Part shown: piece after piece, positions 25,024 through 35,415 of the stretch
Layout of the letters: each line of letters opens with the position of its first letter
How positions within the stretch are numbered: the stretch's first letter is position 1
DNA from: Henriciella marina DSM 19595
GTDB lineage: Bacteria > Pseudomonadota > Alphaproteobacteria > Caulobacterales > Hyphomonadaceae
DNA: 64,000 nucleotides
Direction: 5' to 3'
Assembly: GCF_000376805.1 (NCBI RefSeq)
Contig: NZ_AQXT01000002.1
Span: forward strand, 372,001-436,000
Made by a program: the position numbers and the translations under genes
Notes under the pieces: model-generated
The model's input: the letters and a program-made list of their open reading frames with translations, nothing else
What the model was told of the DNA's origin: nothing
Database searches by the model: none

Positions 25024-25680
25024 TCAGGCGGTCCTGACAAGAATGAAGACGAATACCGAATAAAGCGCTGAAAGAATGGCAAATTTACCGATGGCGGCAA
25101 TGACGAATGGACGGAGATCGTGCCAGCTGGTCTCGCGGGCAATGCCAGCGACCTCCTGGGCGATTTCCCGTGTCATCTGATCCATCTTGTGGCCTGAAAG
25201 CGACAGTATGATCCGGGTGGTGCGGCCCGTATCGAGAGCCTCTGCTTCGGCAAGCACCTGTTCGAAGACGAGAGCGGCCACGGTCTCGCCCACGGCGCGC
25301 CGCGGGTGCCAGCCATGTTCGTGCAGTTTCGAGAGGACAAGTTTAGCCGTCGGGAATATCACCACCGCGTCCCGTATGATGAAGGCCGCAAGCAGGATGA
25401 CGGTCGCGGCGGACAGGATATTGTGGGAATAGAGGCCGAGCCGGAACCCTAACCAGGCAAGAACGAGCAGCAGGGCCTTGATAAAGACTGACTGCACGAA
25501 ATGGGTGAGGTTATCGCGGAAAAACTCGACAGCGTGTCCGCGAATTCGTTCGCGTGCATCGATTGCGGCCTGATGGATAATCTTCTGTTTCTTGCGGTTT
25601 ACCGCGCTGGTAATCGCTCTGCGTCCAAGACTGACGCCCGTCGTCAGCGCCGAAACGACAAGAAAGGCCGCCCTTAGCAT
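25024..25680 (-). CDS. Membrane protein of unknown function, third gene of a predicted stress operon
   Basis: 218 residues. An N-terminal hydrophobic segment (residues 1-20), two central helices (about 64-82 and 90-110) and one C-terminal helix (about 190-214) flank amphipathic, charged stretches. No domain recognised. It is 60 bp downstream of a small membrane protein gene, itself 13 bp downstream of a DUF883 gene with an exact EcfG promoter. I infer one stress-induced envelope operon. Confidence 0.72.
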   Translation of the reverse strand: MLRAAFLVVSALTTGVSLGRRAITSAVNRKKQKIIHQAAIDARERIRGHAVEFFRDNLTHFVQSVFIKALLLVLAWLGFRLGLYSHNILSAATVILLAAFIIRDAVVIFPTAKLVLSKLHEHGWHPRRAVGETVAALVFEQVLAEAEALDTGRTTRIILSLSGHKMDQMTREIAQEVAGIARETSWHDLRPFVIAAIGKFAILSALYSVFVFILVRTA

Positions 25681-25740: not shown

Positions 25741-26139
25741 TTAGATCATCTGATCGATGAGCTTTTGCAAGCCTTTGGATGCCTGCTCTGGATTGGACAC
25801 GACCAGATACCCAGCTGCCAGGGCAATGGATGCCGCCGCAATCGGGCGTTTTTCAACAAGCGCCGCAATCGTGTCGAAGGGCAGCTCTGCCAGCATGTCC
25901 GCCGTGGCGTGTTCGAATTGGTCGAGCTCTTCTTCAGTTGATTTTCCGGGCTTCAGGAAAACCAGCGTGCAGATGCAGGCGATGAACAGGAAAAGACTCG
26001 CCACCGAAACGGTCGCCCACAACAGCCCGATAAGCGGGATGAGGGCGATAACCGTTGCGATGGTCAACGTCGTAACGCCGGCGAAGCCAAAAAAGACTGC
26101 GCCAGCGCCAGCGATAATTCTTAGTTTTGCGACATCCAT
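25741..26139 (-). CDS. Small membrane protein (phage holin-like/YqjE-like), predicted stress operon
   Basis: 132 residues. Two adjacent long hydrophobic helices (about residues 8-32 and 36-62) are followed by an acidic stretch (KSTEEELDQFEHATADM) and a third short hydrophobic region (AAASIALAAGYLVV). Pairing with a DUF883 (ElaB/YqjD-like) gene 13 bp upstream resembles the enteric yqjD-yqjE arrangement, where both proteins are inner-membrane and stationary-phase induced. The comparison is structural, not based on a strong sequence match. Confidence 0.75.
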   Translation of the reverse strand: MDVAKLRIIAGAGAVFFGFAGVTTLTIATVIALIPLIGLLWATVSVASLFLFIACICTLVFLKPGKSTEEELDQFEHATADMLAELPFDTIAALVEKRPIAAASIALAAGYLVVSNPEQASKGLQKLIDQMI

Positions 26140-26528: not shown

Positions 26529-26553
26529 AACGCCAAGCGGTTGCATTCGTTCC
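26529..26553 (-). promoter_or_regulatory. EcfG-type general stress promoter of the DUF883 operon
   Basis: Minus strand: GGAAC, 16-bp spacer, CGTT, ending 38 bp before the DUF883 start. Exact consensus. The divergent Crp/Fnr gene starts 69 bp on the other side. Confidence 0.8.
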
Positions 26554-26621: not shown

Positions 26622-27398
26622 ATGAAAGTTTTCAAGCGGCGCCTCGGCCAGTATGTCAGCATAGACGACGACGCATGGGTCACGTTCGATGAGCTTGAGC
26701 GACAGGAACACTGCTTCCTGCCTGGCGACGACCTCATTACCGCCGGAGATGAGACCCGCCGCGTCTTCATTCTGAATGAAGGCTGGGCGATACGCTACCG
26801 CCTGCTTGAAGACGGCCGTCGCCAGATCGTGAACTTCATGCTGCCTGGCGACGTGTTCGACCTGCAGTCGCTCGCTGACCTGAAGGCGGATCACTCCGTC
26901 ACCGCCATAACCCACTGCAAGGCAGCCGTTATTCCGTCGGGGATCTTTGTCGAGATGCTGAAGAAGTCGGCCTGGCTCGCGTCGGCGTTCTGGTGGTCTG
27001 CCGTTCAGGAAGAATCGATCCTGAGGGAGCAGATTGTCAGGATCGGGCGAAGGTCGGCGCGCGAGCGGATTGGGCATTTGCTTCTTGAGCTGCATCGCCG
27101 CTTCATCGGCGCAACGGGCATAGAGGTCGAAAAGCTGACCGTGCCTCTGACGCGCGCTGACATTGCTGATGCGCTGGGCCTGACGCCTGTTCACGTCTCG
27201 CGGACCATGTCGGCAATGCGCCGGTCTGGGCTGATTTCTGAAGGGCGGGGGGGTGAGATCACGATTCTCGATCGCGACCGTCTCGCACGGCTATCGCTCT
27301 TCGATATGGAATATCTGCACCTGAAGAAATTGGATCTTCTCAAGAAGAATGGGGTCAGACATTTCAGAGAAACGTCGAGCAGGATTAACGCAGATTAA
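26622..27398 (+). CDS. Crp/Fnr family transcriptional regulator
   Basis: 258 residues. An N-terminal cNMP-binding-like beta-roll (FLPGDDLITAGDETRRVFIL) and a C-terminal winged HTH (LTRADIADALGLTPVHVSRTMSAMRRSG, about residues 180-210). The Fnr-type N-terminal cysteine cluster is absent, so it is not an iron-sulfur oxygen sensor; cAMP contacts are not evident either. It is divergent from the stress-induced DUF883 operon and followed after 40 bp by a sigma-like gene on the same strand. I infer a regulator that feeds into, or is integrated with, the general stress locus. Confidence 0.9.
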   Translation: MKVFKRRLGQYVSIDDDAWVTFDELERQEHCFLPGDDLITAGDETRRVFILNEGWAIRYRLLEDGRRQIVNFMLPGDVFDLQSLADLKADHSVTAITHCKAAVIPSGIFVEMLKKSAWLASAFWWSAVQEESILREQIVRIGRRSARERIGHLLLELHRRFIGATGIEVEKLTVPLTRADIADALGLTPVHVSRTMSAMRRSGLISEGRGGEITILDRDRLARLSLFDMEYLHLKKLDLLKKNGVRHFRETSSRINAD

Positions 27399-27438: not shown

Positions 27439-27885
27439 TTGGACAGCACGTTGCAAGCAAATCGCCCCTCAGAGACCAATCCCATTTCGCTGTTGCAGCG
27501 ATTGCGGCGCATGGGCCTGATTATAACGGGCAATCAGAATGTTGCAGATGCCATACTCCGAGACGCCTTCCACAGGGCAAATGCTGCATTCACGTCGTCG
27601 ATTGACGCGAACGAGGATGACATTTTCAAGCTTGGCTTCGACGCTTTCGACGATGCGGTTCATCGAAAAGGGGTGGTTGTGCTGATGGGACGCCGACCAA
27701 AGGAGGATGGCTCCTTATGGTCCGCGGTCCATAATCTTACCTATTTCGAGCGTCTTTCCATTGCGCTATTGCTTGTGGAAGAAATGTCGCCGCGCGAAGC
27801 AGCGATCCTGTCAGGGCGGCCCCCTCAGACACTGGACCTCGCCCTGGAACATGCACTGGCCAAGCTCGGCGAGACGGGGATTTAG
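27439..27885 (+). CDS. Stand-alone sigma-like protein resembling the PhyR N-terminal domain
   Basis: 148 residues from a TTG; an in-frame TAA at 27421 excludes a longer form. Residues about 18-50 (LLQRLRRMGLIITGNQNVADAILRDAFHRAN) read like a sigma region 2 helix pair, and 97-144 (LTYFERLSIALLLVEEMSPREAAILSG) like region 4. The same two blocks, with the same spacing, occur in the sigma-like half of PhyR in this window (FLRRYARALTGS and PIERQAFLLTALEGF). The recognition helix is degenerate (RPPQTLDLALEHALAKL) and there is no receiver domain. It could bind NepR, act as a divergent ECF sigma factor or be a decoy. Function is inferred. Confidence 0.7.
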   Translation: MDSTLQANRPSETNPISLLQRLRRMGLIITGNQNVADAILRDAFHRANAAFTSSIDANEDDIFKLGFDAFDDAVHRKGVVVLMGRRPKEDGSLWSAVHNLTYFERLSIALLLVEEMSPREAAILSGRPPQTLDLALEHALAKLGETGI

Positions 27886-27888
27886 AAG

Positions 27889-28068
27889 ATGAGTGGTGAG
27901 GACAATCGCAAATCCCATCTCAGACGGGTCCTTGGCAGGTTCAAGCTTTCAGATCCCGATAAGGGCCTGGTGGATGCTTTCCGTTCGCTTACTGGCGGCA
28001 GGGAGGGCCCCGGAGGTTCTAATTCGACTCCCACGCGCGGCTCGAAGCGTTCCAAACGCCCCAAGTAA
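27889..28068 (+). CDS. Small basic protein of 59 residues, coupled to the sigma-like gene
   Basis: The ATG lies 3 nt after the stop of the sigma-like gene (TAG AAG ATG), and the frame ends TAA at 28066-28068, 6 nt from the convergent dehydrogenase stop. The product starts MSGEDNRKSHLRRVLGRF, has a short helix-prone stretch (DKGLVDAFRSLTGG), and ends in a basic tail (TRGSKRSKRPK). It is similar in size to NepR (66 residues here) but shows no NepR motif. Placement directly after a sigma-like gene is that of a partner or anti-sigma factor. Real-gene status rests on position and coupling. Confidence 0.5.
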   Translation: MSGEDNRKSHLRRVLGRFKLSDPDKGLVDAFRSLTGGREGPGGSNSTPTRGSKRSKRPK

Positions 28069-29343: not shown

Positions 29344-30135
29344 TTACTCGGCTGCGACAGACTCAGCGGACGGGTGGAAGAACAGGGCCTGCCCGATCGC
29401 CGCCTTCACCGTGTTTTCCTGGAAAGGTTTCGGGATCAGGTAGGTCGGCTCAGGACGTTCACCTGTCAGCAGGCGTTCCGGGAAGGCCGTGATGAAGATG
29501 ATCGGTACATCAAGCTCTTCGAGGATTTCATGCGCTGCCTCGATACCGGACGAGTTATCTGCAAGCTGGATATCGCAGAGGATAAGGCCGGGAGGGTTTG
29601 CCCGTGCCATGGCAACCGCTTCAGTATGCGTCGTCGCGTTTCCGGTGACCTCGTGACCGAGCTCTTCGACAAGGCTCTCAAGATCTGCCGCGATAACCGG
29701 CTCGTCCTCAATGATGAGGACCTTTGTCGACAGGGTCGCTTCGATGTCAGTATGGGCCTTGGCGATCAGTTCATCGACCTGCTGGACGGTCTTACCCAGA
29801 ATGGTCGCGGCCTCACTGACCTGAAACCCTTCGAGCGCTGTCAGCAGGAAGGCCTGACGTTCAATTGGCGCGAGCGCCTGAAGCCGTGTCTCCGGAGTGG
29901 TTGCGCCGTCATCCGCACTTTCGAGGCGAGCGCCGGTCGACCCCCAGATGACATGGAAGAAACGATAGAGCGCCTGACGCGCCGGAAGTTCGTCGCTCAC
30001 CTGACTTGGATCCTCGGCCAAGGCAGTCAGCGATGCGCGAATATAGGAATCACCGCTTTCCTGGCTCCCTGTCAGCGCGCGCGCATATCGCCGCAGAAAC
30101 GGCAGGTGTGGACCAAATTGCTCAACAAGACTCAT
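29344..30135 (-). CDS. phyR: PhyR, response regulator and anti-anti-sigma factor of the general stress response
   Basis: 263 residues. Residues 1-130 form the sigma-like domain (FLRRYARALTGSQ and PIERQAFLLTALEGF); about 138-255 form a receiver (VLIIEDEPVIAADL, phospho-acceptor Asp in LILCDIQLAD, Lys in YLIPKPFQE). In the known mechanism, phosphorylated PhyR binds NepR through the sigma-like domain and releases EcfG. It is divergent from nepR-ecfG with a 140-bp shared promoter region. Upstream on the minus strand is only a weak EcfG-like sequence (GCAAC-N16-AGTT). Confidence 0.97.
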   Translation of the reverse strand: MSLVEQFGPHLPFLRRYARALTGSQESGDSYIRASLTALAEDPSQVSDELPARQALYRFFHVIWGSTGARLESADDGATTPETRLQALAPIERQAFLLTALEGFQVSEAATILGKTVQQVDELIAKAHTDIEATLSTKVLIIEDEPVIAADLESLVEELGHEVTGNATTHTEAVAMARANPPGLILCDIQLADNSSGIEAAHEILEELDVPIIFITAFPERLLTGERPEPTYLIPKPFQENTVKAAIGQALFFHPSAESVAAE

Positions 30136-30275: not shown

Positions 30276-30476
30276 ATGAGCGAAAAAGCGAGTCACATGC
30301 CGATGGATCATCAATCGAAGGGCGGAGCGGACGACGACCGCTCCCGTAAAGTGCGTCAAAAACGGATCGGAGATCAGTTGCGACGGCTCTATGATGAGGT
30401 CACGGAAGAGGCCGTTCCCGAAGAGTTTCTTAATCTTCTCGAACAGGCAGACAACAGCGCGAAGAATAAGAAATAG
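30276..30476 (+). CDS. nepR: NepR, anti-sigma factor
   Basis: 66 residues. The conserved core KRIGDQLRRLYDEVTEEAVPEEFLNLL is the NepR signature: two amphipathic helices that wrap around EcfG or around PhyR's sigma-like domain. The N- and C-terminal flanks are short and charged, as usual. The ATG at 30276 is chosen for length and position 30 bp after the putative promoter. ecfG starts 8 nt after its stop, so the two are cotranscribed. Confidence 0.95.
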   Translation: MSEKASHMPMDHQSKGGADDDRSRKVRQKRIGDQLRRLYDEVTEEAVPEEFLNLLEQADNSAKNKK

Positions 30477-30484
30477 AGACTGTA

Positions 30485-31087
30485 TTGACCCAGCCGACAC
30501 TCGACGATCAGGCGTTCAAGACAGAGCTCGCCGGCCTCATTCCGCATCTGCGCGCCTTTGCCCGCAGTTTGTGTGGGAACGCCACCGCGGCTGATGATCT
30601 CGCGCAGGAAGCCATGCTCAAGGCATGGAAAGCCCGCGCTAGCTATCAGAGCGGAACCAATCTGAAGGCATGGACCTTCACCATTCTCCGCAATCTTTTC
30701 TATTCCGAGAAAAGACGCAGCTGGCGCCGACAGCAGCTCGATCCTGAAGTGGCTGAGGCTACGCTGATTGCGAATGACAATCCGTCGTCCGCGCTCGATC
30801 TTCTTGCGCTGCGCACGGGATTGACCTTTTTGCCGGAAGACCAGCGCGAAGCGTTGATCCTGGTCGGGGCAGGCGGTCTCTCATATGAAGAAACCGCAGA
30901 AATCTGCGGCTGCGCGGTTGGCACGATCAAGAGCCGCGTAAGTCGTGCAAGGAAGGCCCTGGCTGAAATTATCGATAAGTCAGATGGCGGGTTTGCTGGC
31001 GATGGCAAACTCAGGGCATCAGAAGCATTCGATGACATCATGAAACAGGCAGACGAGCTATCTAGTGGATCATCCGCCGACGTCTGA
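30485..31087 (+). CDS. ecfG: EcfG-type RNA polymerase sigma factor
   Basis: 200 residues from a TTG 8 nt after nepR. Region 2 is LRAFARSLCGNATAADDLAQEAMLKAWKA, the -10 contact follows (LKAWTFTILRNLF), and region 4 has LPEDQREALILVGAGGLSYEETAEICGC with an intact HTH (VGTIKSRVSRARKAL). It directs transcription from GGAAC-N16/17-CGTT promoters, several of which lie in this window. The C-terminal extension after region 4 is typical of EcfG. The kinase gene overlaps its 3' end by 23 nt. Confidence 0.96.
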   Translation: MTQPTLDDQAFKTELAGLIPHLRAFARSLCGNATAADDLAQEAMLKAWKARASYQSGTNLKAWTFTILRNLFYSEKRRSWRRQQLDPEVAEATLIANDNPSSALDLLALRTGLTFLPEDQREALILVGAGGLSYEETAEICGCAVGTIKSRVSRARKALAEIIDKSDGGFAGDGKLRASEAFDDIMKQADELSSGSSADV

Positions 31088-32786
31088 AATCAGGGTTGCA
31101 CCCAAGAGGGGATCACTCCGGCTGCGATTGTTGATAACGATCGCAGCCGCGTTGACTCCAATTCTGATATTTGCCGGGTTCCGGTCATATCTGAATGCGC
31201 AGGATGCGCGCGCCGAGCGTCGCAACGACCTGGTCGAGATTTCTGACCGCGCGATCGATAATGTCGAGCAGGTCCTTTCCACCGTCGACACGCTGCAGCA
31301 GATCTATGAAGGGGATATCGTGGGGGGCGATTGCCGCGGCGTTTTCACAACACTGTCTCCGCGCGTGCCGCAGCTTTCCAACATTGCATACTTCAATTCA
31401 GATGGAATGTCGGAATGCTCGGCGCTGCGGGACCCCGGTGCGGTCGTTGCACAGCCCGAGGCCTTCGAATTATTGCGACAGGGGCAGACAAGCGTCCGCA
31501 CCGACGCTTTCTTCGGGCCCCAGAGCCAGACCTGGCTGTTTTCAGTCCTGCGCCGCGTTGAAGATGTTGACGGACAATTTCGCGGGGGGATTGCCTTTCC
31601 GCTGCGTACTGACGAACTTATTCGGACGATCCGCCTCACCAATCTGCCGCAGGATGTCGAGCTCGCCCTATCCGATAGTGCTGGGCAGGTTTTCGGTAGC
31701 GCAAGGATCGCGGGTGTGGAGCCGAGCTGGATTGAGCTGGCCACAGGTGACGAAGATGGTGAGCTCTTCGTCATAAACCGGGCGGATGAGGGGTCTATTG
31801 ACGTCGTTGTGCGCGCAATCGTCGACAACCGCATCTATGCTGTCATCTCGCGGCCATCTCCCGGGCTATTCAGCGAATTCACGCTCCAGCCGCTGGAGTC
31901 GGTGGGTATTCCGCTTCTGTCCTTCACCCTGGCGCTTATTGCCGCCTGGATGGCCGTCGATAAACTTGTCCTGAAGTGGCTGTCGCGCCTTCGCCGGCTC
32001 GCCCTCATCTATGGTGAGGGGCATTATAATTTCCGGATCGGAAATGAGTTCGACAATGCGCCGGATGAAATCCTTTCCTTCGCGCGGACTTTTGATCGGA
32101 TGGCCAACCGGATTGCCGAACGCGACAGTTCGCTTCGAACGGCGATTGCCACGCGGGATTCTGCGGTGAAGGAAATCCATCACCGCGTGAAGAACAACCT
32201 TCAGATCGTTGCGAGCTTTCTGAACCTTCAGCGCCGACAGGTGTCTGATCCGAGTGCCCGGAATGTGATCTCTGCGGCGCGCCACCGGATCGATGCCCTC
32301 TCAATCGTACACCAGACCCTTTACCAGCATGAGCGGCTCGAGACCGTTCACATGCAGCCCTTCCTCGATGCGCTTCTATCGCATCTTGCAGGGGCGCTGG
32401 GCATGGACGAGATCAATGTCACGATCGAGCAGGACATCGCTGATATCGACCGGCCTGCTGATGATGCCATTCCGATAGCGCTTTTCCTGCTCGAGGCTGT
32501 CACCAATGCAATGAAATATGCCTTCGGCGAGGAAGGCGGGGCGATCCTGGTACGCCTTCAGCAGGAAGAAGACGAGATCGTGCTCTCGGTGATCGATAAC
32601 GGCTTCGGTGTCGATGAGGATGAAGAGGACACGCCAGGGTCGACTGGGCTTGGGTCGAGACTCATGTCCGCTTTCGCAAAGCAGTTGCGCGCCGAAATGA
32701 AAACGATCTCGAAACCAGGCGAGGGCTTCCAGGTCGATCTTCGGATGCCTGCAACCGAGCGCGAGATGAAGGTAACGGACTTCTAG
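31065..32786 (+). CDS. HisKA_2-type membrane sensor histidine kinase (PhyK-like)
   Basis: 573 residues from a GTG inside the end of ecfG. A membrane helix near residues 22-42, a periplasmic sensor region to about 270, a second helix (LLSFTLALIAAWMAVDKLVL), a HAMP-like linker, then HisKA_2 with the phospho-accepting His in EIHHRVKNNLQIVASFLNLQ (about residue 370) and a HATPase domain (EAVTNAMKYAF, DNGFGVDED, GSTGLGSRL). Kinases of this class phosphorylate PhyR in other alphaproteobacteria. The sensed signal is unknown; no PAS domain is apparent. Confidence 0.93.
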   Translation: MDHPPTSEIRVAPKRGSLRLRLLITIAAALTPILIFAGFRSYLNAQDARAERRNDLVEISDRAIDNVEQVLSTVDTLQQIYEGDIVGGDCRGVFTTLSPRVPQLSNIAYFNSDGMSECSALRDPGAVVAQPEAFELLRQGQTSVRTDAFFGPQSQTWLFSVLRRVEDVDGQFRGGIAFPLRTDELIRTIRLTNLPQDVELALSDSAGQVFGSARIAGVEPSWIELATGDEDGELFVINRADEGSIDVVVRAIVDNRIYAVISRPSPGLFSEFTLQPLESVGIPLLSFTLALIAAWMAVDKLVLKWLSRLRRLALIYGEGHYNFRIGNEFDNAPDEILSFARTFDRMANRIAERDSSLRTAIATRDSAVKEIHHRVKNNLQIVASFLNLQRRQVSDPSARNVISAARHRIDALSIVHQTLYQHERLETVHMQPFLDALLSHLAGALGMDEINVTIEQDIADIDRPADDAIPIALFLLEAVTNAMKYAFGEEGGAILVRLQQEEDEIVLSVIDNGFGVDEDEEDTPGSTGLGSRLMSAFAKQLRAEMKTISKPGEGFQVDLRMPATEREMKVTDF

Positions 32787-34743: not shown

Positions 34744-34768
34744 AACGCTAGGTGCAGAATATCGTTCC
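34744..34768 (-). promoter_or_regulatory. EcfG-type general stress promoter of the lipid kinase operon
   Basis: Minus strand: GGAAC, 16-bp spacer, CGTT, ending 37 bp before the first gene of the operon. Exact consensus. Confidence 0.8.
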
Positions 34769-35351: not shown

Positions 35352-35376
35352 AACGTGAGGGGCGAACCGGGGTTCC
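35352..35376 (-). promoter_or_regulatory. EcfG-type general stress promoter of the entericidin-like gene
   Basis: Minus strand: GGAAC, 16-bp spacer, CGTT, ending 33 bp before the ATG. Exact consensus. A second such promoter fires the other way 14 bp further on. Confidence 0.8.
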
Positions 35377-35389
35377 AAAAATAATTTGA

Positions 35390-35415
35390 GGAACCGTTTG
35401 GCACCGTTCTCCGTT
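35390..35415 (+). promoter_or_regulatory. EcfG-type general stress promoter of the DUF1328 gene
   Basis: GGAAC (35390-35394), 17-bp spacer, CGTT (35412-35415), 48 bp before the DUF1328 ATG. Back-to-back with the entericidin promoter. Confidence 0.75.

Follow-up and report, generated by a model that had tools for sequence, protein, structure and literature searches.

The 148-residue protein encoded beside the PhyR-NepR-EcfG locus in the window (the whole 64,000-nucleotide stretch of Henriciella marina DNA that was analysed) is related to the sigma-like half of PhyR but has no receiver, and the 59-codon open reading frame (ORF) that follows its gene is real, translationally coupled and under purifying selection. 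The reading that we consider most likely, with a probability of roughly 0.5, is that the 148-residue protein is a sigma mimic set by expression, rather than by phosphorylation, which would capture NepR-type peptides. The PhyR switch is understood as phosphorylation-gated at the receiver, and a conserved natural relative of PhyR without this domain would show that dosage is a further means by which cells set it. A search of the open-access literature, with subscription papers outside its scope, returned no description of receiver-less PhyR proteins, and the protein studied here is conserved and apparently undescribed. What is new is a protein that is PhyR-like by descent, has no receiver and appears to have its own control and partner, together with the link of its gene to one Crp/Fnr regulator and a conserved palindrome in front of the gene.

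Organization and distribution of the locus

The gene for the 148-residue protein (hereafter SL-only, for the receiver-less PhyR sigma-like protein) starts with TTG, just downstream of GGGAA, and ends with TAG; a spacer of three bases (AAG) separates this stop from the ATG of the 59-codon ORF. On the 5' side, the stop of a Crp/Fnr-type gene (crp) lies 40 nt from the SL-only ORF, and on the 3' side a Glu/Leu/Phe/Val-dehydrogenase gene sits between the pair and the full phyR and nepR-ecfG-kinase locus. The features are as follows.

26622–27398, (+) strand: Crp/Fnr-family regulator (FixK/FnrL-like), directly 5' of the SL-only gene (HTH_Crp_2 2.9e-20, cNMP_binding 1e-15)
27385–27398, no strand assigned: Crp/Fnr-type palindrome TTAACGCAGATTAA, candidate site, position conserved across loci
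27439–27885, (+) strand: SL-only protein, 148 residues, TTG start (NF006623, hhalign, tree and fold matches)
27889–28068, (+) strand: basic 59-residue partner, ATG start, predicted as two helices plus a free tail (conservation, pN<pS, read-through fold)
29344–30135, (-) strand: PhyR (NCBIfam NF006623 7e-108)
30276–30476, (+) strand: NepR (Pfam PF18557 5.5e-14)
30485–31087, (+) strand: EcfG sigma factor (Pfam Sigma70_r2 8.4e-18, r4_2 4.1e-16)
31065–32786, (+) strand: HisKA_2/HWE histidine kinase with an extracellular Cache-like region (HisKA_2 6.8e-24)

A preliminary description of this DNA had placed the two ORFs at coordinates that proved exact on recheck, and had recognized a complete PhyR-NepR-EcfG locus nearby, which the Pfam and NCBIfam matches of PhyR, NepR, EcfG and the kinase bear out. 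It had also noted that the pair runs in the same direction as the Crp/Fnr regulator: all three genes lie on the (+) strand, and 20 of the 21 SL-only genes that we collected from the order stand directly 3' of an ortholog of the same Crp/Fnr gene. These 21 loci comprise 8 of 29 Henriciella genomes, 4 more genomes in the family and 9 in two other families of the order. The survey of synteny finds the SL-only gene conserved in position, the homologs of seven other Henriciella and four further family genomes being equivalently placed. The spread of the family over the order, as well as the absence of the pair from close relatives, goes beyond what had been described. Beyond the order, the loci returned for the best matches of a class-wide search of 385 genomes encode ordinary PhyR or ECF proteins.

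The 148-residue protein is a receiver-less relative of PhyR

As a single sequence, the 148-residue protein is a weak match to the PhyR subfamily model (E 4.6e-4, its residues 20-143 aligning to PhyR 11-132), its Pfam scores fall under the gathering cut-offs, and sequence searches with it returned no match in the PDB and no relative in the genome contigs; a genus-only alignment used as the query against the contigs returned two loci. At the level of the family, the NCBIfam PhyR model NF006623 is matched by all 12 of 12 family homologs (best 3e-8), profile comparison with hhalign gives E 8.5e-6 to PhyR versus 3.6e-4 to EcfG, and a PhyR-SL profile outscores an EcfG profile for 18 of the 21 SL-only proteins. 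The family search also hit L014 and L015, but both hits lie within TrpA proteins and were rejected as chance. In trees of the 21 SL-only proteins with 44 PhyR SL domains and 48 ECF proteins, the SL-only proteins form one clade (IQ-TREE UFBoot 62, FastTree 0.95) that joins PhyR at UFBoot 98, a grouping to which long branches or a common loss of DNA-contact residues could contribute. On the basis of sequence comparison and the tree, we favour PhyR over the ECF factors as the closest relative.

Neither Pfam nor NCBIfam yields a Response_reg match in the 148-residue protein, and the ORF terminates after the sigma4-like helices, with no C-terminal receiver bearing a phospho-acceptor aspartate; the receiver-less, PhyR-like character that had been proposed earlier from visual similarity is upheld by these results. 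Like PhyR (NF006623), the protein has a sigma2 and a sigma4 domain without promoter-contact residues and shares its neighbourhood with NepR and EcfG, in addition to grouping with PhyR in the tree. Unlike PhyR, it has no receiver domain and is thus free of phosphorylation gating, and its gene has a candidate Crp/Fnr-type box on the 5' side and its own small ORF on the 3' side.

The AlphaFold2 model of the 148-residue protein, which was limited by the use of 3 sequences where 12 to 21 are available, is of low-to-middling confidence (pLDDT 61.2, pTM 0.45). Its top structural matches are PhyR (9cb6; Z 12.0, rmsd 2.6, 110 residues) and NepR-bound RpoE (5uxx; Z 11.9, rmsd 3.4, 123 residues), which head a list spanning Z 9 to 12 overall and are tied there with other ECF factors. 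We regard the predicted sigma fold, which the preliminary description had suspected from two helical blocks, as sound.

A coupled 59-residue partner

Homologs of the 59-residue protein are present in seven of the eight Henriciella loci with an SL-only gene, where they start -11 to +3 nt from the SL-only stop and share the core LK..L..I....P...L..AF..L (pooled pN 0.52 vs pS 0.76) with a variable tail, as would befit the coupled partner that had been proposed. Its reported lack of NepR motifs is likewise matched by three similarity tests, none of them significant: the NepR Pfam model does not match the 59-residue protein, hhalign against NepR gives E 0.1, and a diverse NepR profile compared with all Henriciella copies gives E 0.2 or worse. 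In other genera of the family, the ORF that lies 3' of the SL-only gene encodes a short membrane peptide, and in L104 and L105, which belong to one genus in a different family, its product carries a core resembling NepR, LKQYKQELLDAPLPEPLEKLL; at E 0.009 in a test of nine sequences, this likeness is only a hint. As the downstream ORF differs among genera, the SL-only protein is the constant part.

The SL-only and 59-codon ORFs share a frame, such that reading the SL-only stop codon (TAG in the window, TGA in the homolog from Henriciella sp. PW1) as a Gly codon yields a fusion that we modelled with AlphaFold. The fusion reaches pLDDT 69.5 and pTM 0.67, compared with 61.2 and 0.45 for the 148-residue protein alone, and the confidence of the 148-residue part is also higher, in a calculation that used a three-row alignment, a short linker forcing proximity and no control peptide. 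Within the fusion, the 59-residue part is predicted to form two helices (154-166 and 175-185, pLDDT ~70 to 85, from the same three-row, control-free model), and NepR-bound RpoE and PhyR again come first in the structure comparison. According to VIA-align, the first of these helices lies against sigma4 in the manner of the final helix of NarL/FixJ-type domains, and the read-through model therefore does not establish a NepR-like pose. The gain in assembly confidence brought by the 59-residue protein suggests, within the limits of such a model, that it may bind the 148-residue protein.

NepR paralogs occur in Methylobacterium extorquens (PMC4814048). Like NepR and its paralogs, the 59-residue protein is small and basic, with two predicted helices, and stands beside a putative sigma mimic, and it may for these reasons work like NepR; it differs from NepR in having no significant sequence relation to it. 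Alternatively, it could be a second anti-sigma (or anti-PhyR) peptide, with the 148-residue protein merely its dedicated antagonist and the pair dampening or delaying the stress response. Such a role is favoured by the translational coupling and joint conservation of the two proteins, but L022 carries the SL-only gene without the 59-codon ORF, and the membrane peptide found in its place in other genera is a different one; on balance, we consider it rather unlikely.

A Crp/Fnr-type box precedes the SL-only gene

The palindrome TTAACGCAGATTAA, which was missed in the preliminary description, overlaps the crp stop codon, and its centre is located 47 nt 5' of the SL-only start. A relaxed consensus, TTRAY-N4-RTYAA (TTRAYNNNNRTYAA), which was derived after the first loci had been inspected, is found within 100 nt 5' of the SL-only gene as a perfect match in 8 of 21 loci (0.02 in shuffles) and with at most one mismatch in 14 of 21 (0.51 in shuffles), although these numbers overstate independence because the pattern is post hoc and the loci are related. 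The background for the perfect relaxed palindrome is 0.024 sites per kb, with two in the 64 kb, of which the box is one; in the crp-only loci, which have no SL-only gene, a search for perfect sites beside crp found none. The strict consensus TTGAT-N4-ATCAA, fixed beforehand, occurs with up to two mismatches in 6 of 21 loci versus 0.66 in shuffles, and shows no enrichment at this tolerance across the whole window; the signal comes from the relaxed consensus at a single location. The crp stop codon falls inside the box in several Henriciella, whereas in L019, L023, L025 and the distant clades the box differs in frame or position; this variation relative to crp argues that the box is conserved as DNA. 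The usual half-site of the Crp/Fnr family is the ground for assigning the box to the neighbouring regulator, which probably controls the SL-only/59-residue pair through this predicted site.

The crp gene is also the most constant neighbour of the SL-only gene, including in L024-L026, where the two remain paired with phyR outside the fetched stretch; in L022, the SL-only gene is present without crp. Conversely, six genomes of the genus have crp without the SL-only gene, and in four of the five such crp-only genomes examined the distance between the end of crp and the dehydrogenase gene is 7-17 nt, so that the SL-only gene is cleanly absent. Over the 29 genus genomes, the co-occurrence of the two genes has a Fisher p of 0.0097, with phylogeny ignored. 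This constancy would fit a 148-residue protein that serves as a co-regulator of the adjoining Crp/Fnr protein, outside the NepR-EcfG switch. However, crp itself adjoins a phyR-type locus in most of the genomes from which it was fetched, whether the SL-only gene is present or not, and the linkage is explained by a common Crp box, that is, by plain autogenous operon control. We know of no Crp/Fnr partner with the sigma-type fold of the 148-residue protein, and judge a co-regulator decidedly unlikely.

Loss of promoter contacts and constraint on the protein

On average, the region 4.2 recognition helix carries a net charge of +4.8 in EcfG-type factors, -1.0 in the Henriciella SL-only proteins and -2.1 in PhyR, and regions 2.3-2.4 carry one of +5.7, -1.2 and +1.7, respectively, in agreement with the degenerate recognition helix noted earlier. 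With EcfG-type ECF sigma factors, the 148-residue protein shares the predicted sigma2-sigma4 fold and, in region 2.2, a residual AD.IL.DAF pattern near that of EcfG, but not the basic residues that these factors have in regions 2.3-2.4 and 4.2, and for want of these it should not be a promoter-reading sigma factor. One option in the preliminary description had been a divergent sigma/anti-sigma pair, with the 148-residue protein as an ECF sigma factor and the 59-residue protein as its anti-sigma factor; the region 2.2 pattern and the tie between ECF factors and PhyR in the structure comparison are in its favour, but the missing promoter-contacting residues and the position of the protein with PhyR in the tree make it very improbable.

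Within the genus, the identity to the window copy is 51-62% for the SL-only protein versus 85-93% for PhyR, and the pooled pN of the former is 0.31 vs a pS of 0.73; the SL-only protein evolves fast yet under constraint. As the gene is missing from 21 of the 29 genus genomes, it is dispensable. A functionless, decaying copy of PhyR might show this patchiness, with absence from many relatives, and this faster evolution, but is barely credible in view of the pN and pS values and of an old clade that is retained in several families with a conserved 5' box.

A proposed model for phosphorylation-independent input

Upon phosphorylation, PhyR exposes its sigma-like domain, which takes NepR from EcfG (PMC8103513). 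A precedent for NepR binding that is independent of phosphorylation in a PhyR is provided by RT-PhyR', which retains its receiver domain, whereas the 148-residue protein has none. For the latter, the PhyR homology and grouping, the predicted sigma fold, the loss of DNA contacts, the conserved pairing in one operon with a small protein of two helices, and the conserved box, were computed, and we infer every binding step of the mechanism that would make it an expression-set sigma mimic. The Crp/Fnr regulator would act via the box on production of the SL-only protein together with the 59-residue protein. The receiver-free mimic would be permanently binding-competent; with no receiver to mask it, its amount would be the signal, and since a free sigma-like domain requires no exposure, control would lie in its dosage, which the Crp box would supply. 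We suggest that the mimic would bind NepR-type helical peptides within the sigma2-sigma4 groove, that the co-translated 59-residue protein would be its first ligand and set a threshold, and that excess mimic would take NepR and thereby free sigma-EcfG without phosphorylation.

The arrangement suggests a second, phosphorylation-free route into the stress response. The order crp, box, mimic and peptide would connect a Crp/Fnr-type signal to sigma-EcfG in a way that is open to direct test, and the pair would be a test case for sigma mimicry with a peptide that is not recognisably NepR. A wider and more doubtful, though possible, extension is that free PhyR-like sigma mimics constitute an order-wide second stress input that is independent of phosphorylation, made under Crp/Fnr control and thresholded by a NepR-analogous peptide of separate origin.

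Further observations in and around the locus

The window contains six EcfG-type promoter sequences (GGAAC-N15..18-CGTT) versus 1.8 expected, including those at 26529-26553 (-), 34744-34768 (-), 35352-35376 (-) and 35390-35415 (+); the genes behind them encode a DUF883-like protein, DUF7218/Rho_N, a small lipoprotein-like ORF and a DUF1328 protein. Given such sequences before several window genes, part of the stress regulon is probably clustered here; none was found in front of the SL-only gene. Divergent from crp, the genes at 25741-26139 (-) and 25024-25680 (-), which have no Pfam match, adjoin crp across the family, including L024-L026. A second NepR paralog is located outside the window in the same genome (G000:C2:1282196-1282288, L145; 29.6 bits, above the Pfam cut-off) and is also present in most Henriciella examined.

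In three loci of one genus of the order (L091 7604-8365, L092 5138-5938 and L093 7288-8127), the genes 3' of the SL-only gene encode a highly divergent PhyR (~31% identity), a kinase and an ECF protein. Pfam at its cut-off detected no NepR in these three genomes, and a form of the switch that is NepR-free, or that has an unrecognised NepR, is possible there. In L116-L123 and L023, from related genera, the interval that separates phyR from crp (or from the SL-only gene) encodes a small membrane peptide that is conserved and ~45-57 residues long; it has an EARQG motif and a single hydrophobic helix.
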